64,000 nt of DNA from Heliocidaris erythrogramma. Taxonomy: Eukaryota > Echinodermata > Echinoidea > Camarodonta > Echinometridae. A program made the translations under genes and the position numbers. The notes beneath the pieces were generated by a model that worked only from the letters and a program-made list of their open reading frames with translations, was not told the DNA's origin and ran no database searches. Each line of letters starts with the position of its first letter. Position 1 is the first letter of the stretch. Where the stretch lies: contig CM046862.1 of NCBI GenBank assembly GCA_025617745.1, forward strand, positions 53,509,097-53,573,096, given 5' to 3'. Shown here one piece after another: positions 11,389-50,570 of this stretch.

Positions 11389-11573
11389 CATTTCTTCGGT
11401 GGAATCCTCGTGATTACAGAATGTTCCGACAAGGAGAACATTTGGTTCCTTATCCTTGTCCATATCCTTGTCCTTATCCTTTATGTCGGAGGGTGGTACA
11501 GCATGGATGTAGATTGACATTAACCAGAAATGTATCAGATCACGCATTGCTCGATGTGTCCTCGGGACACAGC
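11389..11573 (-). CDS. Roc-like GTPase gene, exon with G4-region strand
   Basis: Read on the minus strand, an AG acceptor (CTACCAG) precedes 185 bases and a GTAATC donor follows. The exon opens with two bases and then 61 codons, ending in phase 0. The peptide includes HFWLMSIYIHAV, a Lys/Asp run (DKDKDMDKDKE) and NVLLVGTFCNHED. In Roc domains the strand after switch II usually reads (V)LLVGTH.D, the G4 guanine-binding motif. Here His and Asp are replaced (GTFCN), so nucleotide specificity may be altered. The previous recognised exon (15454-15552) ends in phase 0 while this one needs phase 1, so either a short exon between them was missed or the earlier donor differs. Confidence 0.7.
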
Positions 11574-11774
11574 CTGGTAGCTAGCAATATTTTGAGATAA
11601 ATTATACCATAATCATGAAGAGGTAAACGTAGATCTATATCAAAGTATTCCTTTTAATAAATTTCAAGAGAATAAATATATACACACACATATATATATA
11701 TATAATTAAATATCATAATTGATAGGATTGAAGTAAATTGAATATATCATAAAGAAAATGTGAGAAAATTACAA

Positions 11775-11846
11775 TGCCCCGACCGGGATTCGAACCCGGG
11801 ACCCTGGATTACATGACCAGTGCTCTACCAACTGAGCTATCCGGGC
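11775..11846 (-). tRNA. tRNA-Lys-like sequence with atypical loop, copy 1
   Basis: A 72-base cloverleaf can be drawn. The acceptor arm begins GCCCGGA and has one G-G mismatch. The D-arm is GCTCAGTTGGTAGAGC, the box A region typical of animal tRNA-Lys. The anticodon arm is CTGGT-CATGTAA-TCCAG and the T-arm is CCGGG-TTCGAAT-CCCGG. The loop puts TGT at the anticodon but A instead of the nearly universal U at position 33, and stem pair 31-39 is T-T. A TTTT Pol III terminator lies ten bases downstream. It could be a tRNA pseudogene, a tRNA-derived SINE head or an unusual tRNA. Confidence 0.6.
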
Positions 11847-12098
11847 TCCCGTCGAAGCACAGTAACAATCTCACATATAGCCCCTCTCTTTCCATCGAGC
11901 GTAGGGGGTACATCCATACCAATTCCATGCGTACGCTATGTAATGGCCTACCAATGAGACAGGTCTTCCCTCTAAAGTCGGGCAAATCCATGCCAACGAA
12001 TTTCTATAGAGGACAATTTGAATTTGTAATTAAATATCATAATTGATAGGATTGAAGTAAATTTAATATATCATAAAGAAAATGTGAGAAAATTACAA

Positions 12099-12170
12099 TG
12101 CCCCGACCGGGATTCGAACCCGGGACCCTGGATTACATGACCAGTGCTCTACCAACTGAGCTATCCGGGC
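12099..12170 (-). tRNA. tRNA-Lys-like sequence, copy 2
   Basis: Identical to the copy at 11775-11846, exactly 324 bases further on, with the same A33 and acceptor mismatch. Confidence 0.6.
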
Positions 12171-12422
12171 TCCCGTCGAAGCACAGTAACAATCTCACAT
12201 ATAGCCCCTCTCTTTCCATCGAGCGTAGGGGGTACATCCATACCAATTCCATGCGTACGCTATGTAATGGCCTACCAATGAGACAGGTCTTCCCTCTAAA
12301 GTCGGGCAAATCCATGCCAACGAATTTCTATAGAGGACAATTTGAATTTGTAATTAAATATCATAATTGATAGGATTGAAGTAAATTGAATATATCATAA
12401 AGAAAATGTGAGAAAATTACAA

Positions 12423-12494
12423 TGCCCCGACCGGGATTCGAACCCGGGACCCTGGATTACATGACCAGTGCTCTACCAACTGAGCTATCCGGGC
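12423..12494 (-). tRNA. tRNA-Lys-like sequence, copy 3
   Basis: Identical to copies 1 and 2. It lies in the truncated third unit, close to the palindromic joint. Confidence 0.6.
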
Positions 12495-12764
12495 TCCCGT
12501 CGAAGCACAGTAACAATCTCACATATAGCCCCTCTCTTTCCATCGAGCGTAGGGTATTTAATACCCTATATTGATATTTAATTACAAATTCAAATTGTCC
12601 TCTATAGAAATTCGTTGGCATGGATTTGCCCGACTTTAGAGGGAAGACCTGTCTCATTGGTAGGCCATTACATAGCGTACGCATGGAATTGGTATGGATG
12701 TACCCCCTACGCTCGATGGAAAGAGAGGGGCTATATGTGAGATTGTTACTGTGCTTCGACGGGA

Positions 12765-12836
12765 GCCCGGATAGCTCAGTTGGTAGAGCACTGGTCATGT
12801 AATCCAGGGTCCCGGGTTCGAATCCCGGTCGGGGCA
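12765..12836 (+). tRNA. tRNA-Lys-like sequence, copy 4, inverted
   Basis: The same 72 bases on the opposite strand, in the inverted arm. It is followed by attgtaatttt, so the terminator is also kept. Confidence 0.6.
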
Positions 12837-12883
12837 TTGTAATTTTCTCACATTTTCTTTATGATATATTCAATATATATATA

Positions 12884-14392
12884 CACTGAACAAAAATATA
12901 AACGCACGAAACTAAAATTTGATTTGAAATGGGGTATCATGCAATATGGTTATGTGTATGGTTTATTTGTGAACTGATGGATTTGTTTTGATCAAGTATA
13001 GTGGTCTGGTTCCGCTTGGCTGCTCCCATTGAGTCTACTGAAGGTTGAGTTTTTCCAACAATGAGACTCGTGGAGCATGAAGGAGTGGTGGTCAGTCAGC
13101 ATGACCTGTACACAGACACTCCTTACAGGCTTGTCAATAAAAGGGCAAAGCAAAATGTCCATTTCTGTCACTTGTCAACATGCCGCAGATGATGCCAATC
13201 ATGAGGGAGCGTGCCATTGGCATGCTCAATGCTGGTTTGTCCGTAACAGAAGTTGCCACACGCCTGAATGTGCATCATTCCACCGTCAGTCGGCTAAGAA
13301 CACGGTTCAGAGACACTGGTAGCACCAGGAACCGGCCACATGCCCGCCGACCACGTGTCACCACCCCTGCTCAGGATCGTCACCTACGCCGCCAGCACCT
13401 GCGTGACCGGCTCCGACCAGCAACCAGGACTGCTGACGAGACTGTTGGTCTCCACAACAGACGCATTTCTGCCCAGACAGTCCGGAACCGTCTGCGGGAG
13501 GCTGGTCTCCGAGCACGTCGACCCCACCGCGGCCTCGACCTCACGGCGGCCCGAAGTCAGACTAGACTGAATTGGGCCAATGTTCATGTGCGCTGGACAC
13601 TGGCACGGTGGAGGACAGTGCTGTTTAGCGACGAATCCAGGTTCCAGCTGTACCGCGCTGATGGCAGATGCCGGGTTTGGCGCCGTGTTGGTGAACGCTA
13701 TGCACGCCAACGTTCTTCGACGGGTTGCTCATGGTGGAGCTAGTGTCATGGTATGGGCCGGAATTTGCTATGGACAACGCACACGTTTACATTTTATCGT
13801 TGGTAACCTTAATGCCCAACGATACCGAGATGAAATCCTGCGACCTATCGTTGCGCCATTTGTGGAGCTCCATCACGTCACCTATCAGCACGATAATGCC
13901 CGCCCACACGTTGCCCGGATATGCAGGGACTTTCTGGAGGAGGAGGATATTCCTGTCCTCAACTGGCCGCCGTATTCGCCTGACATGTCGCCCATAGAAC
14001 ACCTGTGGGACGTTCTGGATCGGCGTGTACGCAATCGTCTTCCGGCTCCCGAGAATGTCCGCCAACTGCAAGATGCACTCCAGGAGGAATGGGACAACAT
14101 CCCTCAAGCCACCATTGACAACTTAGTGCTGTCAATGCGACGCCGGTGTACCGCTCTGCGCGACGCTAATGGCGGCCATACTCGTTACTAGTGGCTGTGA
14201 CTTCAGAATGTTGACGTCCTGCTGTCATTGGTCCCCTAGCTCTCGGACTGTGCCTTTTGAAGTGCTTGTGATTATCTTAATGTGATGTTTATTTGTTCAG
14301 AAACCTATCCTGTTTTTGTTGGCAATATACACTTGTTCCATATTTGAAAATAAAACAACATAAAATTCGTGCGTTTTTATTTTTGTTCAGTG
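12884..14392 (+). mobile_element. Tc1-family DNA transposon, nearly complete
   Basis: Inverted ends beginning CACTGAACAAAAATA match over 27 bases with one mismatch (12884-12910 and 14366-14392). TA dinucleotides flank both ends, the Tc1/mariner target duplication. The 1509-base length is normal for an autonomous Tc1 element. It lies inside an AT microsatellite at the edge of the tRNA-like palindrome. The one transposase gene inside has a single frameshift, so the copy is young but probably inactive. Confidence 0.95.
13180..14191 (+). pseudogene. Tc1 transposase with one frameshift
   Basis: This would catalyse cut-and-paste movement of its element. The first frame (from ATG at 13180) has an N-terminal helix-turn-helix part (AIGMLNAGLSVTEVATRLNV), a second helix-turn-helix region and the first catalytic Asp in LFSDESRF. 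Near 13700, after VGERYA, the frame moves by one base equivalent (best explained by loss of two bases), and the second frame runs to the stop at 14191. It carries the second Asp in QHDNARPH and the Glu in SPIEHLWD. Exactly 34 residues separate these two, giving the DD34E signature of Tc1. The full length of about 335 residues is usual for the family. Confidence 0.93.
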
Positions 14393-14422
14393 TATATATA
14401 TATACATATAGATGTATTTCTC

Positions 14423-14547
14423 TAGATTCCGCATTTGGGAGACACGGCTTTGTCATTTTAATTGTTCCTCGTGTCTCCGTAAAGCGGTGGTTTCTATTAT
14501 GACGAAATAAACTGCATTGTTACGTGTCTCCCAAATGCGGAATCCAG
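14423..14547. mobile_element. 125-bp foldback MITE
   Basis: The left end (GATTCCGCATTTGGGAGACA) and right end are inverted copies over 25 bases with one difference. The core is about 75 bases. It lies just outside the Tc1 element, in AT repeat. Confidence 0.8.
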
Positions 14548-14551
14548 CGTA

Positions 14552-14556
14552 ATATA

Positions 14557-14602
<46 letters not shown>
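14552..14602. repeat. (TA)n microsatellite
   Basis: About 50 bases of alternating T and A. Confidence 0.95.
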
Positions 14603-14604
<2 letters not shown>

Positions 14605-15453
14605 TAAAATGACACTATGATCAGCAACTTGGGGTAAGGCGATTCGATTCTACTGATATTTTTGTGAGGCAGTATTTTTTTAATATTATTATTATTATTA
14701 ATTACCTACTTTTGCAGTATCACGAGCGTGATATTTGTAATGTCCTGCCATTGCGTAGTTTGTTATGACATGCATATCGAGGCTATTTTAGAAATTTTAC
14801 TTAAAAAAAAATATAGTACTAACGCTTAACAAGCTCATTTTATTTAGCACTGACGTTTAATGCATCTTAGGTATTTCGGTATTTTCATTGATATTGAAAT
14901 CATTATTTGTTTTACAGAACAAAGCATTAGTATAAAGGTACTTAACAATCACATGAAAATAAAATGGGGAAAAATGATAAAAATATAGCAGATCATAATA
15001 GGAATACTCAGCTTTAACATGCAAAAAATCATATAACATAATCAAATTGGATATCATATTGATATAACGAAATTTGATAATCATAATGGGATGACTTATA
15101 TCAATACATGTGACAAATTATATAACATTGTATCAAACTGGATATCATATTGATACAAACAGTGCAATAGAAAATCATAACAGGACTACTCGGATTTAAC
15201 TTCATACACATCATATGACATATCAAGTTGGATGTTTTAATAATATAATCAATGATTTGGTCTAAACACAAATTGCGTTACCAGAATATATATGAATCTA
15301 CATGTATGTATATATTAATAAAACATAAAATTACTTTTAAAAGCGCATCTTTTATTCGGAGTCCATTGAAACAGATCTGAAAGTCGATGACGAACGTTAA
15401 AAGGGATTTTTCCTTATATTTTAATCCATATTAGGCCTATTGACATTTCTTAC
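14603..15453. other. Intronic AT-rich sequence
   Basis: Three diverged copies of a block containing 'ggatatcatattgatat' lie near 15020-15090, 15115-15165 and 15205-15245. No supported coding sequence. An exon bridging phase 0 to phase 1 of the GTPase gene may lie between here and 11.57 kb. Confidence 0.4.
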
Positions 15454-15552
15454 CTCATCATCACATGACTCGTCCTTCCTTAGGGCCTTCTCGGTAAGCT
15501 GTTTGTGCAGCGGAAACACAACGATGTACAAGGCTCGCCATGAAAGAAAAAG
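15454..15552 (-). CDS. Roc-like GTPase gene, exon after switch II
   Basis: Minus-strand exon of 99 bases (33 codons, phase 0 at both ends), with acceptor GGTACAG and a strong donor GTAAGA. It encodes LFLSWRALYIVVFPL followed by a charged tail ending DESCDDE. In Roc domains the segment after DFGGQE.YY..H normally reads FFLS.RALYLLVW, so this exon continues the peptide of exon 19647-19813 with the right phase and family pattern. It would form the beta strand and following helix of the G domain. Confidence 0.85.
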
Positions 15553-16134
15553 CTGTACCGTAATAAAACCCCAATAGTTTCGAATTCATATCAGAGTGTT
15601 AGTGTCGGAGGGGATAATATTGATCATGAAGTTAAACCAGATTCATTTACGCCTAGCGTGAATTATGTGTAACTGAAAGATAATTTGATGTCCCTAAATA
15701 GAGAGATGATTGGTACTAAAAAAAATCTAAGCAAAACACTAAAAAGAGACATACTTAATGTTTTTCGTCTTTCATTCATTAGAATAAATCATAAGAATGA
15801 ATAGGAAGCTGAAATCGAAAAATACAAAGGCTCCATAAAGCTGGAATCAAACGCAAACCTTGTGACAACGTGTTATGTGTTATGCATTTGCTTAGTATGT
15901 TTTGTTTCCATGTTGACTTCTTTTTTCATACTATCAGCTTTCATCATTCCACCCGCTGGTGCAACGTGAGATGGTGGAAGTATACTCAAATAAAGGAACC
16001 AGAGGCTGGCGAATGCAATAACACATGTACCGGTACATAGTTTGGCACTCATGGAAGTTACCTCTGAGTTTAACAACGAGTGGCCCTTTAGCATTAATAA
16101 TGTTCATAATAATAATACTAATACACAGTAAAAA
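15553..16134. other. Intronic sequence with a small hydrophobic open frame
   Basis: On the minus strand, 15873-16052 can encode a 59-residue peptide with a hydrophobic stretch (IAFASLWFLYLSILPP) near its start, like a signal anchor. A 3' splice-like AG precedes it. Nothing else supports a gene, and it could be chance. Confidence 0.25.
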
Positions 16135-16530
16135 ATATTTTAAACAACTCTTCAACATTTTTAAACAACGCTGTTTAAGCCGGTCACTTTAACAACTGTT
16201 GTTTAAAACTTTAAACAACCCAAGTTGTTTAAACTTTAAACAGCCTGTTGTTTAATATTTCAAACACTTTTTTAAACAACAGCTTTTAAACAACTAGGTT
16301 GTTAAAATTAAGTTGTTTAAAAACATCCAGTTGTTTAAAAAAAAATTCACAACTATTGTTTGTTTTAAAAAAGTTGTTTAAAACATCTAGTTTGTTTAAA
16401 TGTAAGTTGTTTAAACTTTTTACACAACTATTGTTTAAAAAATACATTCAAAGTTGTTGTTCAAATTAATTGTTAAAAAAAACTATACGGATATGATGTG
16501 TTTAAACGTACACGGTTGTTTAAGGCTGTT
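16135..16530. repeat. Array of TTGTTTAAAC-type short palindromic units
   Basis: About 400 bases packed with TTGTTTAAA, GTTTAAAC and TTTAAACAAC in both orientations at irregular spacing of roughly 15-30 bases. The block can fold on itself at many points. It has no coding sequence. A smaller relative built on AACCAAC/GTTGGTT is at about 51190-51295. Confidence 0.85.
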
Positions 16531-16547
16531 GTACACAAAGTGTACCA

Positions 16548-16987
16548 GAGCTGATTTATACGTTCAGAGGTAAGCATTTAGAATAAATATATTGTAATCT
16601 GATCGAGTTATACTCAAGACATATTTGTGCTGCCGTGACATCTACATGATGTCTAGATCTAGACCACATCCACAAAATAAATTATGATGTAGACCTGGAA
16701 CTTTGCAGCGCAGCGCAGTTTAAATTAGTTGCACACATACAGTATAGCACCGGACCAACGCGCTCATTCACTGTGTGTGCAACATAAACTGCGCTGCGCT
16801 GCGCTGGAAGGGCGACTTGCAAAGTTGCAGCTAGGTCTATAAATCATAATTAATTCTGTGACTGTGGCTTAGATCTAGACATCATATAGACGTCATGGCA
16901 GCACAAATATGTCTTGAGTATAAACTCGATCAGATTACAATATATTTAGTCTAAATGCTTACCTCTGAATCTAACAATCAGCTGCGA
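16548..16987. mobile_element. Foldback MITE, about 440 bp, long imperfect arms
   Basis: The left arm from CAGAGCTGATTT and the right arm ending at GCAGC are reverse complements over about 200 bases each, including TCAGAGGTAAGCATTTAGA and GATGTCTAGATCTA. The centre has TTGCACACA/TGTGTGCAA. There is no open frame. Confidence 0.85.
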
Positions 16988-17100
16988 CATTTGGAACTTT
17001 TGCAACATTGCAACTACAAATTAAAAAGAGTGTCTCCCTAATACATAATCCAGTAAAATATATGTATATATATAGTTCTGCTTCGGACTTGCAAAGTTAT

Positions 17101-17238
17101 AGACAAAATAGGAATGAAAAGTCCGTATACGATGAAACATTCGAATTTTCGGCCATAGGCCTTCATCAGTAAATGATCATTTCGGCCATAGGCCTTCATC
17201 AGGAAATCGTATACGGACTTTTCATTCCTATTTTGTCT
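17101..17238 (-). ncRNA. Inverted repeat enclosing a doubled hammerhead-like core
   Basis: Perfect 33-base inverted arms (17101-17133 and 17206-17238) enclose two tandem copies, 33 bases apart, of a motif that reads CTGATGAAGGCC-TAT-GGCCGAAA on the minus strand (17202-17180 and 17169-17147). CUGAUGA, a GGCC/GGCC stem and GAAA match the hammerhead core except for one extra A before stem II. A palindromic ATGATCAT lies between the copies and could pair between the two cores. Penelope-like elements are known to carry hammerhead motifs in their terminal repeats. Activity is inferred only. Confidence 0.45.
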
Positions 17239-17393
17239 ATATATATACTGAACTACAAAAGAAACGTCGCAAATGTATGTGTTTGAAACTGTTTTATTTA
17301 CAATGAAACATATTCTTTATTCAAGAGTGAAAACTGAGAAAATGTTTTGCTTTGTTTTGATTAACAAGTGTGCAATAACGACTCTCGTTGATA

Positions 17394-17640
17394 GCGCCTG
17401 TTCTGACGTTGTTGGGCCCACAGGAGACGTTCCCAACGATGTCGAACGGTGAGGATAGGGCACCGAGCAGGACGCCGACAAGACAAGTTGAAGCTTCTCA
17501 GTCGACGACGAACAGTTGCTGCAGAAATTGGTCTGTTGTGTGTGCCAATAGTCTGTAGAGCCGATTATGTTGCTCTGCGGAAGCGATCTTGCAAGTGGTC
17601 CCGGTGAAGATGGCGATCTTGACGTGCTGTTAGGGACTTT
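17394..17640 (-). pseudogene. Tc1-like transposase remnant
   Basis: The minus-strand frame reads LTARQDRHLHRDHLQDRF, an in-frame stop, then THNRPISAATVRRRLRSF and RHRWERLLWAQQ. This is the second helix-turn-helix region of a Tc1 transposase and the linker before the catalytic domain. The catalytic half is missing. An end-like sequence (ctgaactacaaaagaaacgt, near 17249) suggests the 3' terminus of the same element. It is a different family from the Tc1 at 12884. Confidence 0.75.
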
Positions 17641-18107
17641 AGGAATTGCACGTCCACTTAGTCGACTGGTACGCAAGGACATCATTCTACGCCACTGCGC
17701 GTGCGCCACTCGCCCTCTCCCTGTCCTCCTCCCTGACTTGCAAAATCGAGAACGTGTTCACTTCGTTTTTGCGGTGCTCCGAAATCTTCGACGAGGTTCA
17801 CGTATATGACGTCATCAGAACAGCTCAACTATTATGCTCATCCTCAAATTCGGATTGAAAAGGTAAGTTTTCAGTACCTTTTCTTGAAATCACTGTAAAT
17901 TCAACGATGTTTTCTCTTCGTCGTGTTTTAAATTATCGTCTGAAGTCTGAAAGTTGTACTGGCAAGTTATAAATCTGGAATTAAATCAAGTGAAGTGCAA
18001 GCGTGCATAAGTTGCACCCTTTTTTGGCGCGCCGTTGAGTGTGTACTTCCGGCTGACGTCGACGGTACGTACACGTCGAGTGAAATCTAAAGTGATCAGT
18101 TCCTGGT

Positions 18108-18758
18108 TCAGGTTGGTGTTGATTCTTGAGTTGATTCTTCCAGTATTTGCTTGCTGATTTTTCCAATTTCAGATTTGGATGGGTTTATTATTCTGCAGGT
18201 TGGTTTATTGTTGAAGTTAGGTTTATGGTCCTTCATACCTGTGGTGTTGATTCTGTCATCAAGGCCCCGATTAGTAGCAATTCTTTTGTCTTCGGAGATG
18301 GTCCGTTTTACTGCTGTCCTTGGTGCTTTCTTGTAGTCTTTTTCGATGCTCTGTTTGATGAGTTCATTGTGCTGGTCCGTGTTCAGTTTGTAGAAGTTGT
18401 TCGTTTTGTCTGCTGAAATAAGCAGGTTTGGGTCTCGGTTGATGTTTTCTGTATCCTTGCGTAGTTGTGTTTGGAATGGTTTACGGTTGTTTTGGAATTC
18501 TATGTCTTGCACGATGCTCAGCATTCCATCTTCAAAGTCTTTTAGTTCGGGTGGTGCTTTTGAAGAACGAAATTCGTATGTTTCTTTTTTGTCTCGGTTT
18601 GGGGTGTTGGGGTTGAGGAAGAAGTGGGTTCTCCATCTGATGTTTCTGATGAATTTCTCTGCTTTTTCGATTAGGCATTTCAAGTAAGTTTTCCTTGTTG
18701 GTGTTGGTATGTTCTTCGTAGAATAACCGAGGTTGACGCCATTAAGTCCGTGGTCCAT
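18108..18758 (-). pseudogene. Retroelement reverse-transcriptase ORF, N-terminal fragment
   Basis: A minus-strand open frame of 216 residues. Recognisable stretches are LLISADKTNNFYKL, MKDHKPNFNNKPTCRIINP and SKSEIGKISKQILEE. I recall this pattern (SADKTNN, LKDHK.NF...TCR.INP.KSE.G.ISK.IL) from a widespread invertebrate retroelement polymerase, just before its first RT motifs. The catalytic Asp motifs are absent: after KQILEE a single-base loss changes the frame and the similarity ends. It is an unnamed, truncated copy. Confidence 0.6.
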
Positions 18759-19646
18759 GTTGGTTTAGAAAGTGCTCAACAGTGGGTGGAGCATATACAT
18801 ATATCGGTGCAATCTTAAAAAAACGACAGGGTGAATGTACAAATTAAAAGATCATATGTATTCCCTAAAATTAATTTGTTGTCATTTTATCATATCGTTG
18901 TTAATAATGCACAACTCAAGGACTTCAGCATTAGAAAAAAAAAGTCCTAACATTTTTGCTCGATCGCTTCGCTTAATCCACATCAATGGTTAGACCATTA
19001 CACAAAACTGTCCATTGGAGAAGCTGAAGTAGTGTCCCAACCACAATGAAAAGGAAGTTGATGATGCTTGATAATAATTATATTAAGTTGGCCTAAGGGT
19101 AATGAATATGCCACAAAATGGTCATTTGGCACTTTATGTTCGTCACCCCTTGTAGGTACCCCTTTTCCCCAAAATGTGCCCTTTTTGTTGGCCCCCCCCC
19201 CCCACTTTGAAGAACGCTCTGCCACCCCTGGCACTCTGACTTGCCAGGTATTGACAAAAAGAGGATTGGAACTCAAAAGAAATTTATGTTTAGGGATCAT
19301 CAAAGTGTCCTAAACCTTGCATAATAATTAAGCACTTCCTGCGCATTATAGTGTATCAATACAAGAAGTTACTCTGATTTAAAGTTATGGGAGATCAAAA
19401 TGAGATAAGTATTCAGGGTTATAAAAAAGAAACTAATACAACAAAATCCAGGGAAGACAAACATATGTCTACTGAAACAGCCATAAAATACCACTTTTAG
19501 GTTTTCAGTTAAAAAAAGGTATACTCTTTTACTCAAAACTAAAATTTTACCATGCAAACCCAAAAACACCTTTTGAGCTAACTGAAAATTACACAGTCCT
19601 AATTTTGGGTGGTTTTTGTGGTGCCTAGTCACAAATTTAAACGTAC
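18759..19646. other. Intronic sequence with a poly-C tract
   Basis: Holds a C run at about 19191-19203 and a MITE-like stretch (19120-19260) of the kind that ends in long homopolymers. No coding sequence. Confidence 0.4.
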
Positions 19647-19813
19647 AGGATGGGTTATGTAGTAGATCTCCTGTCCTCCAAAGTCCCATATGCTGTAGAT
19701 GATATCATTGGCGATTGATTGTACATCGTGGATCCTTTTCGATGGTATGATGTGAGCTTGTGTATTTGCAGATTGTGCACCACTAGTGCCGATGGGAGAC
19801 GTCACATTTCTTT
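19647..19813 (-). CDS. Roc-like GTPase gene, exon with switch II (DFGGQE)
   Basis: Minus-strand exon of 167 bases: two bases, then 55 codons, ending in phase 0. The acceptor is TCAATGGCAG and the donor GTACGT. It encodes a Ser/Thr/Gln-rich linker and then IYSIWDFGGQEIYYITHP. DFGGQE is the G3 (DxxG) motif, and the following YY.TH pattern is typical of Roc domains in ROCO proteins such as LRRK and MFHAS1. Phase joins it to 22419-22464 upstream and 15454-15552 downstream. A second possible acceptor (TTGCTCAG, near 19842) would give a different phase and is less likely. Confidence 0.88.
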
Positions 19814-20106
19814 CTGCCATTGATAGATGAACAATACTGAGCAAGTTAGAAAGGAATGCAGGACAAAACAAGTAATGAAACTTAACATACATAAGACAGA
19901 CACAAATAAATAAATAAAATAGCATAAAAATATATCGATCATGTGTTCGATTTGGTTATTCTAAAACTGTAACCATGAAACACTGCAACTTTTAATGCTC
20001 TCACAAGGAAGTTAGATCTACAATTGCATTCAATGCTTATCAAGACCTTTGCTGGTGCTGGGGATTCGGGAGAATGTTATGTTTTTATTGAAAGTAGTTT
20101 TACATA
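19814..20106. other. Intronic sequence
   Basis: No feature recognised. Confidence 0.4.
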
Positions 20107-20671
20107 CAGGGTTGGAAAAAAGTTTGGAATATTTTTATTCCAAGAATTATTTCTTGTCTTAAACATATCCCTTGTCATTTTAAGTTCTTCTTTGAGGTTC
20201 AAATAAAAGATATGTGTCCCTTTTTAACTTTAAAAGCACAACATTAAAAATCAGGCTTATCACACAGTGCAGAGGTCCACTTGGAATTCGGAAGCGTATA
20301 TTTGCTGTTTTTGCAAATGTCTAACGAAAAAAGTTAAATAATCAGATACAGTTTAATTGCTATACCGAAGTCCTCAAAAATGACTGCAAAATGCACGTAG
20401 CTTTTTCAAAATTGCACGTGAAGTACAGAAATGTATAACAAGATGTTCAAACACAAATAGAGCAAATCTGACAACATGTGGTTCATTGGTCAGCCATTGT
20501 AACATGTTTAACAATATTACGTAATCTTTGGTACAAGATGGAACAGTAGACTTCATTCAACACAGTTAATCCGATTTGGATGAATTATTCATCACAATAT
20601 AGTAGAAACTAGCATTTAAAATCAGACATACTCATCGCCCAAAAAATATTCCAAACTTTTTTCCAACCCTG
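20107..20671. mobile_element. Tc1/mariner-type MITE, 565 bp
   Basis: Inverted ends CAGGGTTGGAAAAAAGTTTG match over about 30 bases and are flanked by TA on both sides. There is no transposase inside, so this is a non-autonomous element. Confidence 0.9.
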
Positions 20672-22418
20672 TAGTTATCTTATGTTTTGTTAGGCTAGCT
20701 TACTGCGCATTTTGTGAAAAACTATTGTAGAAATGATAAACAAAATGCTTTTTTCATATTTGTAGTTTCCCAATTTCATCTTCACCGTATCCGTTTTTGG
20801 AAAGAGATGCAATGATGATATGAGCCTATTTATTTTGGCAGAGAAACAACTATCGATTGCCTTTAGTTTAGCATGTGTGGGCGTATGTGTGTGTGTGTGG
20901 GGGGGGGGGGGGGTACGCTTATATTCCCCGATGGTGTCACTTCTTATTCAAAGGTCTAACTCATGACTGTTAGCGGAGTCGAAAAGGACCCACCATTTTG
21001 CTACCAAAAATTAATACTGACCACTTTTGCGTAAAAACAAGTAGAAAATTGTCTCCATAAATATGTAACCTTTTTTTTTAATTAAAACGCATCGTCATAA
21101 TATTTTAAGATTAACGAAACAAAACACGAAGCAAAGGGTTATTATTACCAAGTTGTGTACGTTATGGCTATGATTATCTATTATCCGTAAAGTACATGAG
21201 GAAGTAATAAGCTTTAGATGGTTACTTTGATGACCTACGTTCATGCATACATGCCTTACCGAACCCAATATTGTTTTTAGAATGTCCTGTAAAAGCCCCA
21301 GGTGTGCCAGATTTTGGTTAAACCATGAAAACGCTAGGACCACATGCAGACATGACCTTAAATAACATAACTGTCAAATCCTATGAGAAGATTGTTTTAA
21401 CGTGCATCGTTTAATAATGAGGGCCAGTGTAATACCCTCATCATAAAGAAAAGTGTGGCCGACTTTAATATTGTCAATGATGGGATTAAAGAAATTCCAT
21501 ATTTTTATTCTCAAATGGTAGTTACAATATTGAAAAGATGTTTAGTACTACAAAATCGGAAAACGGTGTTGAAGAGAGACATACTGAAGCATTTCGTCTT
21601 GCAATCATCAGAGTATACCGCAAGAATGAACAGAAAGCCGACATCGAACAATATAAAGGAAACTAAAGGAACAAAGCGCGTTACAAAACTAAAATATTGA
21701 TAAATTTAATTTTCAGAACTTCATTTTTTCAAAGAACACAGAACGGTCGTATTTTGATAAAAATAAAGTAAAAGGCACAAGTCCATTGCAATAAAGCGGG
21801 AAAGTGTGGTATTAAGTGCACATAAAACAACAACAATTTACGTAACACCTCAGAGTGGGCACCCGTCCATCACAGAAGGGGCACTATTTTCATTGTTCAA
21901 AGGGCAATTATTGATTTTTGTGAAAATCTGGGGTGTACGTCCTCTCCCTGCCTGAGCAGTGGGTAACGTACAGTCCACATATTTTGTGTAATTGCTAATT
22001 ACCTACGGGAACCGAGTGGTCCCTATGCTAAGCCTATGGGAATGAGAGAATCCAGTGGTCAACTGGTTAATGTGCATCATCAAATGGTGAAAGTCTTGCC
22101 CATCCTCTTAATAAAGCTTGCATTTGTGTCATTCCAAGGGGTTGGGGTAATTATTGTGACATACCAGAAGTGAGCAACTACGTGGACATCGCCATAATTT
22201 TTGCCCCAACCCCAACCCCTTGATGAGATAAGCATGCATGAAAAGCTCTGTTTCTCTTCTTTCATTTGATGCAGAACTTAATATAATTCACTCATGACTG
22301 AAATAAAACAATGGAAAGTGGTGCTAGCACAATTGCATTTTGTACATTTATAAGTCCATTAAATCCTGAAAATAATAAATACATTATGGATCTCTATTGA
22401 AAATGTTCTATCAATTAC
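20672..22418. other. Intronic sequence
   Basis: Contains a (GT)n plus poly-G stretch at about 20885-20914 and a small inverted repeat of AAGGGGTTGGGG type (22136-22225) that is G-quadruplex prone. No coding sequence supported. Confidence 0.4.
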
Positions 22419-22464
22419 CAGTGGTTTCAGAAGTTGTTGGTGATGCAGCTTGTGAATCCAATGT
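22419..22464 (-). CDS. Roc-like GTPase gene, small linker exon
   Basis: Minus-strand micro-exon of 46 bases: acceptor TTCTAACATAG, donor GTAATT, 15 codons plus one base (phase 0 in, phase 1 out). It encodes TLDSQAASPTTSETT, a flexible Ser/Thr-rich linker between switch I and switch II. Alone it would be weak; the phase fit on both sides is the support. Confidence 0.65.
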
Positions 22465-23118
22465 CTATGTTAGAATAAAGGGAAAAGACAAAAGAGAACA
22501 ATTCCTATTACATGTGCAATATAAAAAATGAAAAAGACCCCAACTCCCACATAAAGATTTGGGAAATCAAGAGTAGTGTTACATTTATCTCTTTTGCCAT
22601 AGTTGTTCATGATTGATTTTCAACCACATTTCATTCAAAAAGGAGAACAAAACAAAATAAAAACGAAAAGGAATGAAGAGTGGTAGTTAGGCGGGCGCTG
22701 TCTAGTTACTGAAGGTGAATAAGCTCCCAAAATAACGAATCTTGGACATTGTTATTTTAGTACTGTATTCGTAAGCCAGGTATACCTATTCGCCAAATCT
22801 TTTTTCCTGGATATGCACTTTAAACTGTTCAAGCAGCCGTTGCCAGTAGATCTCAGAGCAAAATGGAACAAATTAGTTCGATTACGTAGAAACATTTTAT
22901 CAACGACATATTACAATTTAGTCATGCATTCGCAAGATACACGCATTGGAACACGAACAAGCCAAAATATCATGTAAACTTGTTAAATAAAATTTAATTC
23001 CATGACTCAGTATACGGCAAACTACTAATCATATAAATTATCTTTGACCTGAGCAAAAAAGGTAGATAAAACAAAGGTTATTAGACCTCTTGGAAATGAG
23101 CAAAAATTTTGCACTGAC
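22465..23118. other. Short intron
   Basis: No feature recognised. It separates the two small exons by about 0.65 kb. Confidence 0.5.
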
Positions 23119-23171
23119 CTGATTGTTCATGGCAGCTTGCTGATGCCGGCATAAGCTTTCAGCAGTGGCAT
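23119..23171 (-). CDS. Roc-like GTPase gene, small exon
   Basis: Minus-strand exon of 53 bases: acceptor CATCCCAAAG, donor GTCAGT, two bases then 17 codons ending in phase 0. It encodes ATAESLCRHQQAAMNNQ. It takes the single base left by exon 44164-44246 (or by 40407-40484) and hands phase 0 to 22419-22464. The peptide resembles no motif; it would be part of an insertion in the effector-loop region, longer than in most small GTPases. Confidence 0.65.
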
Positions 23172-24835
23172 CTTTGGGATGAAAAATAATAAATACATAA
23201 CTAAAATGTGTTAAGTTAAATCAAGAAAATTACGAAAAGAATTATAGTGTTCGATTGAGGACAGGGAAATTCAGAACAAAATTAACCTAAAAAGAAACAC
23301 ATGATATATGTGGGATATACAACAGAGTATTGAAACTGCCTAAGTTGATTTTCGATTTTTTTTTTATTCTAGGACAGCTACCCCCCCCCCCCCCTCCCCA
23401 CACATGTTAACACAAATTCTTATGAATTATTCATGAGCAGGGTTGCAAGACTTTGTCCAAACTGAATGCATCATCGAAATGGACGGTTCGCAAATTGGTG
23501 TATAATATTGCGTGGAGCCACATCGTTGTATATACAAGATAAACAGACTTGATATCAAATATGGAAATGTTAGTAATTGGGTTAAGCATATTAATGCTAG
23601 AAAGGTTTGTCAGTAAAGGCATTATTGGTATATAATTGGGTTTGGTAAGCCGGTAAATGGTAAATCGTGACGTCACTCTATTCATCATGGGGGGGGGGGG
23701 GACGACACAATAGCCGTCCCCCCCCCCCCCCCCCCCATGAACAATAGATTCTCTACTCGGATTGACGCCCATGGTATGCCGTGTATTCATAAAAAACAGG
23801 TTCTGTTAGTTTTCTTGTGGAATTCATATTGGTAAGCAAATGTTTCAATTACTGAATACAGATAGCAAATATTGCAAACTTTTCTAGAGATATTAAAAGG
23901 TGATTTAAATATTGGAAGATGTCATGCCCCACTGATCTGTAATGCGATTAGTTTTGAGTTTGTTTCTGTATTGCTTAAGACTGATATAATGATTACGATA
24001 GCTCACTCATTTTAAGAATTGTGTCATATACACATATGTGAAAGTAATAAATAGGGAGTGGCCTTCATTGCAAAACTACAATATTTCATAGAGAATGTAT
24101 GAACTAAATTGCATTTTCTACAGCAACAAAGTGACCTCAGTCAAGGGTCTTATACCCTATTTTGTTTGATATGAACATGACGAAATAAAGATCAGCCTCA
24201 TACCTAGTAGAACCGCATAATCAACAACTGACTGAGTGCATACCCCCACATTTGTGAGTTTGTTATTGTTAAGATGAAGGTGTTGATTGCTGGATACACT
24301 TTGGAAGGTTTTATGTCGTTTCTTGTGAAGGAATCATCAGTATTTTGTCAATTCTATATTTCATGTGAGTACCTAATAATGTGAGTATATTGTCTGCAAT
24401 GATTTATTAATCTATTAACAATGGAACCAGTGAAGCTTAATTCCATTGTGTGGTTTGTTCTCCGCTTCGAGTACACCTACCAAGCTCAATAATATTTGTT
24501 TCCATCAAAAAGACAGTAACTTACAAGAACCATGTAAAACTTCAAAAAAGTACAACTGTGGTATTCATGTATCATACCATGCTATTTCAGAAGCATCATT
24601 TCAGATTTCGCTTCTGAGTTCAGGTGATATAGACAGGGCCAATAATCATCAAAACGGTATTCATAAAACCCAACTAAACCTAGTTGGCAACTAAATATCC
24701 CCCGAAATTTAGACTTGATGTGGAGTACCTTTAAATCACTAGTTGTTGATCGTCAAAAGGGCAGCATGACACGAAGAGTTTGAGTTGATTTGATTTGATC
24801 CTAATAATGCCATGTTGAGAGTGTGTTAAGGTTCA
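23172..24835. other. Intronic sequence with G/C tracts
   Basis: Holds a C run near 23382-23395 and the mirrored poly-G/poly-C hairpin listed separately. No exon recognised. Confidence 0.4.
23676..23742. repeat. Poly-G/poly-C hairpin
   Basis: Sequence of the form ttcatcATGG(n)ACG, ten bases, CGTC(n)ATGaa: a G run of about 13 faces a C run of about 21 with matching flanks, a near-perfect hairpin. Confidence 0.85.
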
Positions 24836-25140: not shown

Positions 25141-25142
25141 CG

Positions 25143-33956: not shown

Positions 33957-34148
33957 CTAGCCTAGCCTGTCGATCGCCTGGCCTGGCCGGCGGTCGCTGG
34001 GGTAGTCGCGACATCGTGTGTGAGGAGAATTACCAAATTTTGATTATTGCATCTAGCCTAGCCTGTCGATCGCCTGGCCTGGCCGGCGGTCGCTGGGGTA
34101 GTCGCGACATTGTGTGTGAGGAGAATTACCAAATTTTGATTATTGCAT
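33957..34148. repeat. 96-bp tandem duplication, GC-rich
   Basis: Two copies (33957-34052, 34053-34148) with three or fewer differences, each containing cgatcgcctggcctggccgg. They lie in a locally CpG-rich stretch (33770-34130) that stands out from the AT-rich surroundings and could be regulatory. Confidence 0.9.
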
Positions 34149-37684: not shown

Positions 37685-37689
37685 ACAAG

Positions 37690-40406: not shown

Positions 40407-40484
40407 CTGTAGGTGAGTGTAGATCTATTTGCATGTTTCTGGCATGACTGTCTGCTCCATCATCAAATAAGAGATGTCATGCAT
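40407..40484 (-). CDS. Doubtful symmetric exon of the GTPase gene, with a stop
   Basis: Minus strand, acceptor TTTGCTTACAG and donor GTAAAT enclose 78 bases, a multiple of three, phase 1 at both ends. It would therefore slot between 44164-44246 and 23119-23171 without changing frame. The peptide HLLFDDGADSHARNMQIDLH reads like coding sequence, but the third codon is TGA. An internal acceptor (GATGGAGCAG, leaving 45 bases) avoids the stop and keeps the phase. It may be a cassette exon, a poison exon or a mutated exon. Confidence 0.4.
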
Positions 40485-44163: not shown

Positions 44164-44246
44164 CTCGGACTCGGTTGTCTATTTTCCATCCACTGATAAC
44201 AGTTGTGTTTACAGTTCCTATTGTGCTTGGCTTATCCGGCTCGAAC
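44164..44246 (-). CDS. Roc-like GTPase gene, switch I-region exon
   Basis: Minus-strand exon of 83 bases: acceptor CATATTTCAAAG, strong donor GTAAGT. It starts with one base that completes the Gly codon left by exon 50441-50570, then 27 codons, then one base. The peptide FEPDKPSTIGTVNTTVISGW fits the loop after the P-loop helix, where Roc domains typically read .P..PST.G and a conserved Thr (G2) binds magnesium. The phase fit and good splice signals on both sides make this a confident exon. Confidence 0.85.
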
Positions 44247-45959
44247 CTTTGAAATATGATAGTGATGAAATAACAGTATGATTTTATTACTTAAATAAGT
44301 TTTAGTGCCGGCCCTCGTACAAACACTGCTTTTCAGAGCTCTCCCAGGCCTCCCTTCTCAATTTATGCCTGTTGGTCAATATGACATCCATTTATTAATT
44401 ATTCTTCCTTTTCTCTTCATTTCGGATTGATCTTGATGTATTGCACGGTATGATACTAACTATTTAATAACTATGTATCGTATTGAAAGTGGGAAATTTT
44501 ATAGATGAAATGAAATCGAAAAATCATAGTATCTCTAACAAGTTTTTTAGATTCTGAATCAATCCATGGAAGTTACACTTATAAAATAATTATATTACAT
44601 TTCTGTAAAGGAAAACGAGCCTATCAATAACTTTTCCCTTCTTCTTCTTCTTCTTCTTCTTCTTCTTCTTCTTCTCCCTTCCTTCTTTTTCTTCATTAAG
44701 GAGTCAAAACAAAATCGCCCTCATAAATTCATATGTGATCATATGCTTTAATAAAAATGTTACATCTTATTTTTTTTCTCAAGCAGTGAGAGATATATGT
44801 AAAGTATAAGTTTGGGGGCAGTCCGTTGGTTCATATATATTCAATGAATATCAAGCATAATGAATATCAAACATTATTGAATAAATTACGAACTTGGATA
44901 AAACAGTTATGGACAAGGGCAAGTCAAATATCAATATTTTATAGGTCATTTAAAAATTTTAAGAATTGTAATAAACAATTAGTAATTCTTCAAGCCAATA
45001 CGATTAAAGAAAATATGGATGAATGCAAACAATGCAAAAAGCACCTGGGAACGATTCTGTTACTGAGGGTGCTGTGAGAAAAAGAAAAAAGGTCCTCAGC
45101 ATTTTAGGGTCTCTTGTTAAGTCCAAAAATCTCTGACTACTATTTTGAAATAAATATTATTATCACTGTAATTATCAGCATTTTTGTTAGTGTCATTATT
45201 TCTACTACTGTTATAATCATTTGATTCGCAAAAGTGTAGATAAAAAATGGGATACGAGAGATATCGAGAGTGAATGTTGAATGAGTTGGCAGAGATGAAA
45301 GCTATGTTTGCTCGGAACGTGGGAATAGCCCTGCAAAATTAAAATAAATATAGCCGGGGTACGAAAAGGTACACGTTCATTAAAGCAAATATGAAGCAAT
45401 TCAGAAATGAGCCAAGTTAAATGCTACCGTAAAACTTGAACAATTAAAAAGGCTGTTTGTACTAGCTGTTCGCAAATACAGTTTAATCTGAATATCAAAA
45501 TTTGAAAACAACACACATACGTTCGCGACTCTATTTTCCTGCTTGGAACTATTTTGAATGTTGTTGTTTAATATCATCTTCCTTCAATTATTGAAGTTAT
45601 GATTAAGTATTTATAATATTTACTTGTTTATCATTATTTTAATCGACCTGTTGTTTATTCTCTTAATAAATTCAGGATATTTTTCACTCTCCTTTGATTA
45701 CTCGTACATGACGTACATGACGTCAATCAACCGGTCCAGGGAGTCGTGGCAACACTGATACGAAAACTTAACACGTTAATCCTCTGTATTTAGAAAAAAA
45801 TCTCCGTCCAAAATCTCCTGAAATTTCAGGTCATTTTGGAAACGGTTGAACAAATAAAGGTGCTCGCTAATGAATAAATAATGTCCTTCATTCATGCAAT
45901 GTCATATCTCATAACTATTACACGAATTATCAAACAGATCAAACTTTAGAATGTTTTGC
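44247..45959. other. Intronic sequence with (CTT)n
   Basis: (CTT)n at 44638-44675. A weak plus-strand frame at 44826-45077 has no recognised motif. Nothing else. Confidence 0.4.
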
Positions 45960-46690
45960 AAATATATGAATAATTTATTCATCAATAATATTAGAGTATA
46001 TTACATGGATTATTTTCCTCTTGTAACTTATTGAAGTAGAATCTTAGTATGTGTGTTACGCGCTCGTTACAAAATTGGTTAAATTTGTGCATACATTTTG
46101 ACAGAAAATGCCATCAAAAGGAGGGTGAATTTCCAATTACACGACCAATATTTTCCTATAACGATATCTCCTCTATAATGAGCAAAAAGCATGTCCTGCA
46201 ATTCATACATATTCAATAACGTGAGAAGTATTACGACGCATGTTGACGCATGACTCTTGTGGGGTGTTGCAAGAAAGTTGCGATTGATTGCAAGTTGCAA
46301 CTTATCGGTACTGACCAATCAAAATCATTGTTGCAAGCGCATCTTCTTGAATAGGCTGACCCTGAACCATTCTGAATGGTTGTTCTAATTTGCTTTACAA
46401 TTTGCAATTGATTGCAACTTTCTTGCAACACCCCAATGCTCTTTTAGGTATGCTAAGTCATATTACGACAGATTTTTTTTGGTAAAAAAATAAGAATAAT
46501 CTATTCATTAATAATACTAGAGTCTATTACATGGAATATTTTCCTTATATAACTAATTGAAGTTTAATCTTACAGTGAAAAGGATACTAGGATGCATGTA
46601 TTACGCGTTCATTACAAAATTGATTAATTTTGTGCGTACATAAAAAAAATAAAATAACAGCCGAAAACAGGGTGAATTTCTCATTGTGGA
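45960..46690. repeat. Diverged direct duplication of about 180 bp
   Basis: 45960-46135 (tattcatcaataatattaga...tacaaaattggtt) is repeated in the same direction at 46495-46690 with many substitutions. The 46261 MITE lies between the copies. Confidence 0.75.
46261..46434. mobile_element. 174-bp MITE
   Basis: Inverted ends GGGGTGTTGCAAGAAAGTTG match for 21 bases, then GATTGATTGCAA-type sequence continues the pairing. No open frame. Confidence 0.85.
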
Positions 46691-47220
46691 GATACCCCTT
46701 TGCATTGCAGGTAGTAACTCAGTGTGGGTGCTTCATCTACATTTCCATATCAATGGGAAATTCACTCAGAATGTCGGGGCAAACTATTCAAAATGTCCAC
46801 TCACGTGAAATGTCTATTCATTGTGTAGTGAGCGAACGTACGTGAACCCGTTTACGGGGACGTTGGGATGACATATAAAATTAAAATTCCTCCATTAAGC
46901 TTCTTCATTCTTCATTTACTAATATATATCTGTAATTCAATATCACAAAAACAAATTGTAACCATCTAACTATATGTATTTTGGCGTGCCCCTTTGATTG
47001 CAAGCAAAATCTGAGTAATTTGAAGTCACCGTCAGGTTATTGCTCTAGAAACGTTATGGTGAATAAATAAATATTGGTGAAAAAATCTATTCAACTATTC
47101 AATGCACTTTATAACCTCCACAACCTGAAATGCTGTTTTTCCCCTGTACGTTAGCTAGGACCCTTGATATCATATCCTCTTTGACTGCCACAAAGTTGGA
47201 TGTCGGGCGACCACTCGGGC

Positions 47221-47606
47221 TGTTACCATGGTAATAAGATAGGAAATAACCTATATGTGTAATTCAACAACGTGAAAATATTTATTAGGCACTACATCTA
47301 TTTCAAGCAGCTCTTTTTTGATGTACTTTCAAGGTCACAGTCAGGTAAAACAATTATAATTGTTATTATCCGTTTGGTCTCAAACTGACGCCGATATGGT
47401 GGGTGTGAGCACCAGCCCTATTACTATGGCAACGTACCATCAAAATATTGGAAAATGTATGAAAATGACATATATTCTGTTTTAACAATAGAAAACACGA
47501 AATATTGGTGTTGATATATATATCATAAACTGCCTGAGTTATTACAGTCATAAACCGAATCACTTAAGGCCATAGTAATGTCAAAACAGGGTTGTTGCCA
47601 TGGTAG
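47221..47606. promoter_or_regulatory. Three X-box-like palindromes (GTTRCCATGGYAAC type)
   Basis: TGTTACCATGGTAA at 47221, TTACTATGGCAACGTA at 47421 and GTTGCCATGGTAG at 47594 are spaced 175-200 bases apart, each near a perfect RFX X-box palindrome. They may be members of a diverged tandem repeat. They lie in the intron between the P-loop exon and the switch I exon. Confidence 0.3.
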
Positions 47607-49002
47607 TATTATAATGAAAACTGAAAAATTGAAAAAAAAGTGACAGATTTTTGTTATTACAGCAATTATGTTGCAAATACATTTTAATTGTTCGCCGTGT
47701 TCGGATAGCTACGGGGAAGATATGGGTGTCGATGTGGGGACCGTTGCAGTAACAATAGCTGGTCCCAACTGGTTAGCTGTACTTGAGTATTTATGCTTCC
47801 ACATCTATGCCTTGGTGTTGGGAGGGAGGCAATGGAGGCTTAATAGATGGATTAACCTCAGTCACAGAACCTAATGTATGCATAGGATGATAAACTTGTC
47901 GGTCTGTAGCTAAACCTGTCTACTTGAAATAAATCTGAGGAGATTGAATAGAATTTAGCAGTTTTTTCCCCTAATCCTGCCCATAATAAATCTGCATGTT
48001 CATTAAGGATTAACAGCCTGACCAAGGTGGTCTAGGATTTGGACTTCATCACAAACAGTGCCAAAGAATGAACTTTTGGGTGCCTCATCATAGCTAAAGT
48101 CCAGGATTAAAGTGCTGATACCTGCATGGAATTTTTTTATATTTGCTAGAAGCTATTCAAAAGAACCACTGAGAAGGCCTGTGGTGCAATTGCAGCTCCG
48201 CATTCTCATGACTTGCATGATTGGGGTACAGGTATATTGGCAATGGACTTTATATGTTGGGGACCATCAGACCTATAAGTTTACATATTGGTTGCCCTTA
48301 CAGGTAAGCTGCAGTTCTCTTGGCTTTAGAGGAGATATGGCCAATAGTTTGTGTGATGGTTCCTCTAATACTATCATGCCTTAACATGGTTGGATAAAGG
48401 ACGGGGGTAGCAGAGTTTAGAGGCTAAGTTCATAATGTTGTGAAATTAGTGAACACCAGTGGGCTTGTCTATCTACCTTTTACAGCTTTAAGGCGTTCTG
48501 CAGCCTTACTTGAACTGAGTATTCTCTTATTAAAACTTGGTTGACTTTCTTACAATTCTGATATGGTGACGCACTCGTATCTGGCTTGAATCACAGGCTG
48601 AGAAAATCATGACGAGGAAATTATCCAACCCTCCCCGGTTTGGTTTGGCAAGAATAAAGTCAGAACTCAGGATGGAGATATAGGTGTCATCTATACCCCC
48701 ACAACTATGTCAGAAGAGAATAAAATTTTGTGCACTGTTTGAGTAATGTCTCTATGGTTAGGATGAAGATGATGAGTGAATCCTCACTTCACCCTAGAGG
48801 GAATTCAAGTTTACTTAGTATAGTTTGGTATGTAGTTCTGAAGTCTGTCAATGCCTTCTTATATCTGTTTTTCATGTTAACTCTGATTGACGGGTAATCC
48901 TCAATCCCATCCAAAGTAGCGGGTGTTGCTGCAAGAGGAATTCTGCTGAAAATGTTCCGTACCTCTATCCAATTCTATATAATTTCTTGGTACTACAAAA
49001 CT
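47607..49002. other. Intronic sequence, unrecognised
   Basis: Less AT-rich than its surroundings and free of obvious repeats. Open frames at 47668-47874 and 48112-48384 (plus) show no motif. Confidence 0.35.
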
Positions 49003-49790
49003 TCAATATGGCACGAAAAAGAGACATGATAACGAAGCTTTTCGACCTGCACTCATCCGGTTGTCACGCAGGTATATACAAAAATTACTCGAAAACAACT
49101 ATATTTTACTCGATGAACCCGGACGCAACCCGGACGCCGTAATTTCAGAACAATCGCAAAGCTTGGACGAACTCCTTTTGTCTGCACAGAAGGGGTTCGT
49201 GCGATTGAATGTAGACGGCTTCCAGAAAGCGTAAATGCGCTGCGCTTCTGGCCTGGGACATAATTGAGAATTGATCGTCGGCATAGCTTTGTGCGCAAGC
49301 TGGATTGTTCAGCAAATGGAGACCAATCGCTGAATCGCATTTGGCTATCTTTGGTCTGTTAGCGTGCATTTCAGATTTGCAGGCACGGACGGGCTGCGTG
49401 CGCTGATTGGTTGTACGGTTTCGAATAGTCGAGGGGACGTGTTGTTTAATGCGATCAGCCAACTGCTGAGAAACACGGCCCACGAACCTGGCATCACACC
49501 GGCACTGAAATTTGTAAATAACATTACTCAAGTGGGGGTGGGTAGTACATCCTTGATAGTTGACGGTAGCACAATGCGTGTCGAAACCGCGTAATAGCAA
49601 CGTGACACTGCGTGTTTGATCTGACTGGCGTATTTGTCAGATACCTTACCCCTCCAGGGTAGTTTGAGATACACGGGGCATTTGGCTGGTCCAAATCTGG
49701 TGTCAGATTTGGATTGTGCCTCCAGCGTCTGTGTTATGGTGCGAGATATAACATGCTCAGGGTAACCATTGTCAAGGAAAATAGTTTTGA
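49003..49790 (-). pseudogene. Penelope-like element 3' part with GIY-YIG domain
   Basis: Reading the minus strand from 49790: FLDNGYPEHVI, CPVYLKLPWRGKVSDKYASQ and YAVSTRIVLPST, the linker after the RT of Penelope-like elements. After a frame break comes NVIYKFQCRCDARFVGRVSQ followed by LADRIKQHVP. This is the GIY-YIG endonuclease, in which VIY and FVG hold the usual GIY..YIG places. The C-terminal end (RFLEAVYIQSHEPLLCRQKE) is kept. The RT is missing. About 260 bases of its 3' end recur inverted at 49834-50096. Confidence 0.85.
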
Positions 49791-49833
49791 TTTTCGCGAT
49801 TTCCGCGATTTTTTAACTCCCGAAATCACAAAC

Positions 49834-50096
49834 GGGATGTCCCGGGCCAGAAGCACAGCGCATTTACGCTTTCTGGAAGCCGTCTACATTCAATCGCACA
49901 AACCCCTTCTGTGCAGACAAAAGGAGTTAGTCCAAGCTTTGCGATTGTTCGGAAATTACGGCGTCCGGGTTGCGTCCGGGTTCATCGAGTATAATATAGT
50001 TGATTTCGAGTAATTTGTTATATACCTGCGTGATAACCTGCTGAATGCAGGTGGAAAAGCTTCGTTATCATGTCTTTTTTTCGTGCCATATTGAAA
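49834..50096 (+). pseudogene. Inverted copy of the Penelope-like 3' end
   Basis: Encodes ARSTAHLRFLEAVYIQSHKP and QKELVQALRLF and shares the downstream tail (aggtatataac, aaaagcttcgttatcatgtc) with 49003-49260. The two copies form an inverted pair about 0.57 kb apart. Confidence 0.85.
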
Positions 50097-50440
50097 TTTC
50101 TTATCATTCTTTTCCTTTAGGAACGGCATATTTTTATATGACTGACCTAAATTCATCCGGCTTTTGATTGCAATTAAAAGCGCAGCTTCGATAATTAGAT
50201 GCCTACACAAAAGGTGGATTTAGCTCCTTTTGGAATGAAGCTCTTCACACACACACACACACACATATATACGTATATATATATATATATATATTATGAA
50301 GTTAATGTTTTAACACATTAAGTACCCTTTGGGTAAAACGATAAATATATTTACGTAAAGGTTTGCTTTGGTAATCATATAAATCTAACTTATATCAAAT
50401 TAAAATATTTCTTCTTTGAATTGTCCCTCTATGTACTCAC
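50097..50440. other. Intron sequence with (CA)n(TA)n
   Basis: (CA)n then (TA)n at 50249-50293. Otherwise nothing. Confidence 0.6.
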
Positions 50441-50570
50441 CCTTGCTTGGTAAGGCGACAAATGAAGCACGTCTTTCCAACACCTGCAGGTCCTACAACC
50501 ATTATTCTTGACCGGTTGCACGTTACCATTCCATTTTCTACTGCGTCAGAAACATCAACCTCGTCATTAT
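50441..50570 (-). CDS. Roc-like GTPase gene, P-loop exon
   Basis: Minus-strand exon of 130 bases: acceptor TTTTATTCATAG and strong donor GTGAGT. It has two bases, 42 codons and two bases. The peptide starts acidic (NDEVDVSDAVENG) and continues CNRSRIMVVGPAGVGKTCF and ICRLTKQG. GPAGVGKT is the G1/Walker A motif (GxxxxGKT) that binds the phosphates of GTP, here after a short beta strand (RIMVVG) as in Ras-like and Roc domains. It is the most upstream exon I can place; the phase-1 start requires more exons to the right. Neighbouring retroelements lie in its upstream intron. Confidence 0.88.

Follow-up and report, generated by a model that had tools for sequence, protein, structure and literature searches.

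The window analysed here, the whole stretch of 64,000 nucleotides from Heliocidaris erythrogramma (contig CM046862.1), carries a Roc-type G domain that is split across minus-strand exons from position 50570 down to 11389. No fewer than four exons of the gene, and probably five, lie in the window; named E1 to E5 in the following, they extend across 39 kb, and tRNA genes, a transposon, retroelement frames and repeats are found between and beside them (Table 1). A first-pass annotation made from the sequence letters had described a Roc-like GTPase gene of at least seven exons at this place, of which five are supported by our analysis.

Exon structure and motifs

The exons hold the Roc-type G1, G2-like and G3 blocks in order and in phase, and mostly with good splice sites. 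All five G-domain motifs named beforehand were located by a six-frame motif scan on the minus strand and in the expected order; looser patterns also match elsewhere, namely at three extra P-loop-like sites and one extra PST-like site. The P-loop in E1 fits GxxxxGK[ST], and the DxxG of switch II stands within a block of the WDFxGQE type, which reads WDFGGQE in E3 and runs without a gap into E4.

Each of E1 to E4 is flanked by an AG acceptor and a GT donor, the reading phases agree at all three inner junctions (2/2, 1/1 and 0/0), and neither stops nor frameshifts interrupt the four exons. The introns between them measure approximately 6.2, 24.4 and 4.1 kb, and the repeats detected by self-BLAST overlap none of the exons. 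Splice sites were scored with a simple matrix, and the ranks in Table 1 refer to the 3,495 GT sites and 3,301 acceptors of the minus strand. The earlier description of AG and GT borders with matching phases thus holds for E1 to E4, while its figure of five matching junctions out of six was not reproduced and the join of E4 to E5 needs a weaker site. Its remark that a simple open reading frame scan would miss these exons is correct; the known ones are each shorter than 200 bases and spread over 39 kb, and the gene was caught from the raw sequence.

Table 1. Exons, motifs and other features of the window (a slash marks the exon border in splice donors; numbers after splice sites are ranks)
Feature	Positions	Strand	Content	Phase	Splice sites
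E1	50441..50570	-	G1 P-loop, NRSRIMVVGPAGVGKTCFICRLTKQG	1 in, 2 out	donor AGG/gtgagt, 8; acceptor ttcatag, 99
E2	44164..44246	-	switch I region, FEPDKPSTIGTVNTTVISGWKIDNRVR	2 in, 1 out	donor GAG/gtaagt, 3; acceptor, 383
E3	19647..19813	-	switch II, IIYSIWDFGGQEIYYITHP, preceded by a longer stretch than in bacterial relatives	1 in, 0 out	donor CCT/gtacgt, 259; acceptor, 487
E4	15454..15552	-	LFLSWRALYIVVFPLHKQLTEKALRKDESCDDE	0 in, 0 out	donor GAG/gtaaga, 10; acceptor, 207
E5, probable exon	11389..11580	-	RDLIHFWLMSIYIHAV...EPNVLLVGTFCNHEDSTEEM, G4 region		donor ATG/gtaatc, 266; acceptor at 11573, 154
GPAGVGKT (G1)	50493-50470	-	in E1
PSTIGTV, then NTT (G2-like)	44230-44210	-	in E2
DFGGQE (G3)	19685-19668	-	in E3
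RALYIVVF	15537-15514	-	in E4
LLVGT	11436-11422	-	in E5
12-bp tandem repeat	11447-11481		in E5
tRNA-Thr(TGT) array	11703-12877	three -, one +	four genes, in E4/E5 intron
Tc1/mariner-like transposase	13141-14191	+	HTH_Tnp_Tc3_2 and DDE_3, in E4/E5 intron
~1.8-kb repeat	1-9640		five copies, whole or partial
264-bp inverted repeat	48998-50099		in E1/E2 intron
163-residue frame	49148-49636	-	beside the inverted repeat
Reverse transcriptase pieces	51403-53664	+	RVT_1 and GIY-YIG
450-residue open frame	54690-56039	-	reverse transcriptase
Retroelement-like frames	57947-59765	+

Domain similarity

The joined translation of E1 to E4 matched the Pfam Roc domain (PF08477) with 62.1 bits and an E-value of 7.3e-17 (curated cut-off 27), a comparison that had been set in advance as a check of the first-pass annotation. 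With E5 included the score was 60.6–60.9 bits. Taken singly, E1 gave a Roc match with an E-value of 0.0063, AAA_7 being slightly better (0.0023), and E3 one of 0.0012, which was still 0.048 when E3 was left in an unselected frame of 12 kb.

Among the chains in the PDB, those of the LRRK2 Roc domain (9c76, 6ojf, 2zej and others) rank best, chiefly via the switch II block, with WDF.G.E..Y.THP.F...RALY..V in common; the archaeal Roco structure 4wnr is also found among the matches. The Roco entries are named in an excerpt of PMC6337361. In addition, a tblastn search of plasmids matched 15 of 72,556 records at E ≤ 10 (best 3e-5), eight of which carry the annotation COR domain-containing. Three of the 15 matches, namely H7 (heme peroxidase), H12 (glycosyltransferase) and H14 (TraG), with E-values of 3 to 7, appear to have no relation to Roc. 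Pfam, the LRRK2 structures and the bacterial COR-domain proteins support the earlier naming of the domain, and the window encodes what is predicted to be a Roc-like GTPase domain.

An ordinary small GTPase of the Ras/Rab type would be an alternative to a Roc domain. Pfam Ras matches the joined peptide as well (37.4 bits, E 2.4e-09), and the PDB matches include chains of Rab proteins, of which 3clv (Rab5, 8.8e-8) comes first and stands ahead of CtRoco 3dpu (3e-4). The Roc score is however higher than the Ras score (62.1 against 37.4 bits), and the WDFGGQEIYYITHPLFLSWRALYIVVF block matches LRRK2 and bacterial COR-domain proteins best, so that we regard a Ras/Rab-type protein as very improbable.

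Comparison with chance expectation

Since E1 to E4 of the joined peptide were hand-picked, a scan free of exon choice was made. The profile was built from ten Roc-COR proteins; plasmid records supplied nine of them, and the tenth came from a contig of a viral collection, L001, the single locus returned when that collection was searched for relatives. Ten of the 15 plasmid matches were fetched, of which L005 was left out because it had no W[DE] block by the motif filter; H9 and H11, both COR domain-containing, are absent from the profile. Scoring covered every six-frame segment with a length of 15 residues or more, 2,827 in total. The E3 segment ranked first (24.2 bits, profile positions 55–77), E1 second (7.5 bits, positions 4–28) and E4 third (6.1 bits, positions 74–90, adjoining those of E3). 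The three are collinear with the profile and all on the minus strand; the fourth-ranked segment lies on the plus strand with 4.8 bits, and the reversed window reached a maximum of 3.8 bits. In 60 Markov-chain nulls no segment scored above 11.0 bits, and the third-best score went no higher than 5.9.

In the alignment with the ten relatives the E3/E4 junction, EIYYITHP/LFLSWRALYIVVF, falls inside the most conserved block, which is free of gaps, the E1/E2 junction lies between the P-loop and STxG, and E2 aligns to the STxG block of bacterial Rocs.

Another explanation would be chance, with motif look-alikes in random translated DNA. Some of the numbers are such as chance produces: E1 and E4 by themselves lie inside the null range, with 2 and 7 of the 60 nulls scoring higher, and the highest third-best null comes near to the third segment of the window. 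For E5, the expression WL..I...LLVGT matches the window once, as against 0.005 and 0 times per null (200 nulls), which is not a fair test because it was composed after E5 had been seen. On the other hand, E3 stands far above every null and is significant by itself, the top three segments are collinear on one strand, and the donors of E1, E2 and E4 rank 8, 3 and 10 of 3,495. When order, strand and splice sites are counted together the set of E1 to E4 is beyond chance, and we consider a random origin to be practically negligible. The claim that the agreement is unlikely by chance can be upheld for these four exons, whereas E5 is only probable.

The probable fifth exon

E5 is probably a real exon, as judged from its position and its motifs (WL..I and VLLVGT), and its first base has three options, 11580, 11573 or 11560. 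Several observations weigh against the interpretation of the locus as part of a ROCO-type gene. In addition to the scores of E1 and E4 within the null range, these are the lack of any Pfam match to E2 or E4 individually, the fact that E5 contributes nothing to the Pfam Roc score, and the lack of a Roc match to E5 alone in either Pfam or the PDB. Only three histone hairpin-binding proteins were matched by E5 in the PDB at E ≤ 10 (best 0.21), and Pfam gave no match to it at all. Furthermore, the best donor of E4 leaves phase 0 and the best acceptor of E5 (11573) needs phase 1, which breaks the frame; E5 contains a short tandem repeat; its G4 region is unusual; and a COR domain was not found by Pfam in the three minus-strand frames of 1-11388, where short exons can escape. 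E5 was therefore rejected as independent evidence for Roc, as it adds no Roc score and has no Roc match alone.

The guanine-specificity motif G4 of Roc domains is of the THxD or NKxD type. In E5 the region reads LLVGTFCNHED, so that TFCNHED stands at this place; among the ten aligned relatives, four (L002, L006, L008 and L009) have KNEKQ instead of NKxD. G4 and G5 are reported to vary in Roc domains in an excerpt of PMC6337361. For G5, no exon beyond E5 was identified in the window.

An in-frame join of E4 and E5 requires either the poor acceptor 11580 (rank 1,272) or a weaker donor after 15465 (rank 330). As E5 brings no Roc score and does not fit in phase through the best sites, the gene may be a pseudogene, or a small exon may have been overlooked. 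Candidate exons were sought in every gap (in phase, acceptor ≥ 2.5, donor ≥ 4, sum floors 7 to 13, best-scoring candidates only), and among those listed none looked Roc-like by eye. The two further exons of the first-pass annotation were rejected on these grounds. For the E4/E5 gap all 16 candidates listed lie within the Tc1 transposon or the tRNA-Thr array. The transposon consists of two overlapping frames. In the array, the minus-strand genes sit in 324-bp tandem units that are more than 99% alike, and the fourth gene is inverted.

A decaying or broken ROCO copy, that is a non-processed pseudogene whose exons survive and which no longer yields an intact protein, would account for the frame break through the best splice sites, for the lack of a convincing bridging exon and for the failure to find COR in the scans of 1-11388. 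The intact frames of E1 to E4 are difficult to reconcile with such decay, all of their donors except that of E3 rank tenth or better among 3,495 sites, and weaker sites do allow in-frame pairings of E4 and E5. We therefore consider a pseudogene unlikely, although it is the most serious of the alternatives.

In another arrangement E5 would be the last coding exon of a eukaryotic Roc GTPase without COR, a short free-standing protein with an unusual G4. E5 read through its weak donor does reach a stop at 11376-11374, following ...STEEMVILL. In an excerpt of PMC4104024, ROC is described as being invariably followed by COR. Such a protein appears quite improbable to us, only marginally less so than one of the Ras/Rab type.

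COR, partner domains and interpretation

Minus-strand scans with Pfam covered 1-11388 and 50580-64000 at E ≤ 10, 20001-49990 at E ≤ 1 and, in two of three frames, 11389-23388 at E ≤ 1, besides E1 itself. On the plus strand nine chosen frames were compared with Pfam, besides a control in the profile scan. No match to LRR, kinase, ankyrin, death or TIR domains was obtained in the minus-strand regions scanned, Pfam gave no partner domain upstream of E1, a region that carries retroelement frames, and the COR part of the profile produced nothing above noise in the six-frame scan of the window. The absence of these domains is weak evidence because identical scans also missed E2, E4 and E5. As COR was not found in 1-11388, where positions 1 to approximately 9,640 are repeat copies, it most likely lies beyond the window edge, and the gene itself probably continues outside.

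Taken together, we put the probability at roughly 0.9 that the locus is part of a gene for a eukaryotic, most likely animal, ROCO-type protein, with the Roc domain spread over no fewer than four exons, more probably five, and with the gene start, COR and partner domains outside the window or unrecognised. An animal is suggested by the long introns, the Tc1-like transposase and the reverse transcriptase that comes with a GIY-YIG domain. It looks like an ordinary intron-rich Roc GTPase gene, related to the Parkinson's disease protein LRRK2 and belonging to a well-known protein family. By analogy with this family, the G domain would bind GTP or GDP, relay the nucleotide state through switch II to COR and set the oligomeric state and the activity of the partner domains; the protein would serve as a signalling switch that is coupled to dimerisation. 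Its role might perhaps lie in innate immunity or stress, as has been proposed for some other ROCO proteins. In biological terms the locus adds one more ROCO-type GTPase, and its worth hangs on its partner domains, of which the scans of the window revealed none.

Relation to known Roc and ROCO proteins

Compared with LRRK2, switch I and switch II are separated by a longer stretch here, and neither LRR, COR nor kinase domains were found in the scans of the window. The spacing between the tryptophans of switch I and switch II, counted by eye on the alignment, is 49 residues; in those relatives, five in number, that have the first tryptophan in common with it, the spacing is 14, thus 35 fewer, and in L001 approximately 25, about 24 fewer (both by eye). 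In the Roco proteins of bacteria and archaea (CtRoco 3dpu, MbRoco 4wnr and COR domain-containing proteins of cyanobacteria and Bacteroidota) the P-loop, STxG and WDFGGQE align with the exons described here, but these proteins are encoded in single unbroken frames and possess a stretch after Roc that is absent from the window.

Among animals, Trichoplax has at least 17 putative ROCO genes according to an excerpt of PMC4104024, and TIR- and MyD88-ROCO proteins of Aplysia are described in an excerpt of PMC9334734. They share the domain and provide a plausible animal context, the likeness being one of description and not of compared sequences, and the gene is unassignable to their architectures because its partner domains were not recognised. 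The LRR-ROCO genes of brown algae, proposed as immune receptors with LRRs encoded by 72-bp exons (excerpt of PMC11378527), are likewise eukaryotic and intron-containing, whereas here Pfam found no LRR in the regions scanned.

The protein encoded at the L001 locus (IMGVR_UViG_3300028585_000519, approximately 3704-6803) combines LRR-like repeats, Roc and a long part behind it, and a C-terminal stretch of the protein resembles TIR by eye; the contig belongs to a viral collection and is putatively viral. In L004, a plasmid of Photobacterium toruni (NZ_CP101696.1), the COR domain-containing gene follows genes for a Mu-transposase-like protein, TniB and a regulator and precedes TniQ, and so looks like the cargo of an element resembling Tn7 or Tn5053.

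Surroundings of the gene

The copies of the 1.8-kb repeat at the start of the window are 90–97% alike and contain a piece that resembles a tRNA B box by eye; for 30 bases of this repeat, neither viral_contigs nor genome_contigs gave an exact match. In the E1/E2 intron the arms of the inverted repeat are 94% alike, and the minus-strand frame beside it has no Pfam match. Upstream of E1, the plus-strand pieces with RVT_1 and GIY-YIG, the latter slightly below the cut-off, look like parts of a Penelope-like element; two frames in 51403-52830 have no Pfam match. Two further plus-strand frames, 58089-59036 and 59130-59765, were likewise without a Pfam match and belong to the stretch whose frames, judged by eye, recall a retroelement of the DIRS type or a similar one. 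The open frame on the minus strand between these elements is that of a reverse transcriptase (RVT_1, E 2.3e-32).

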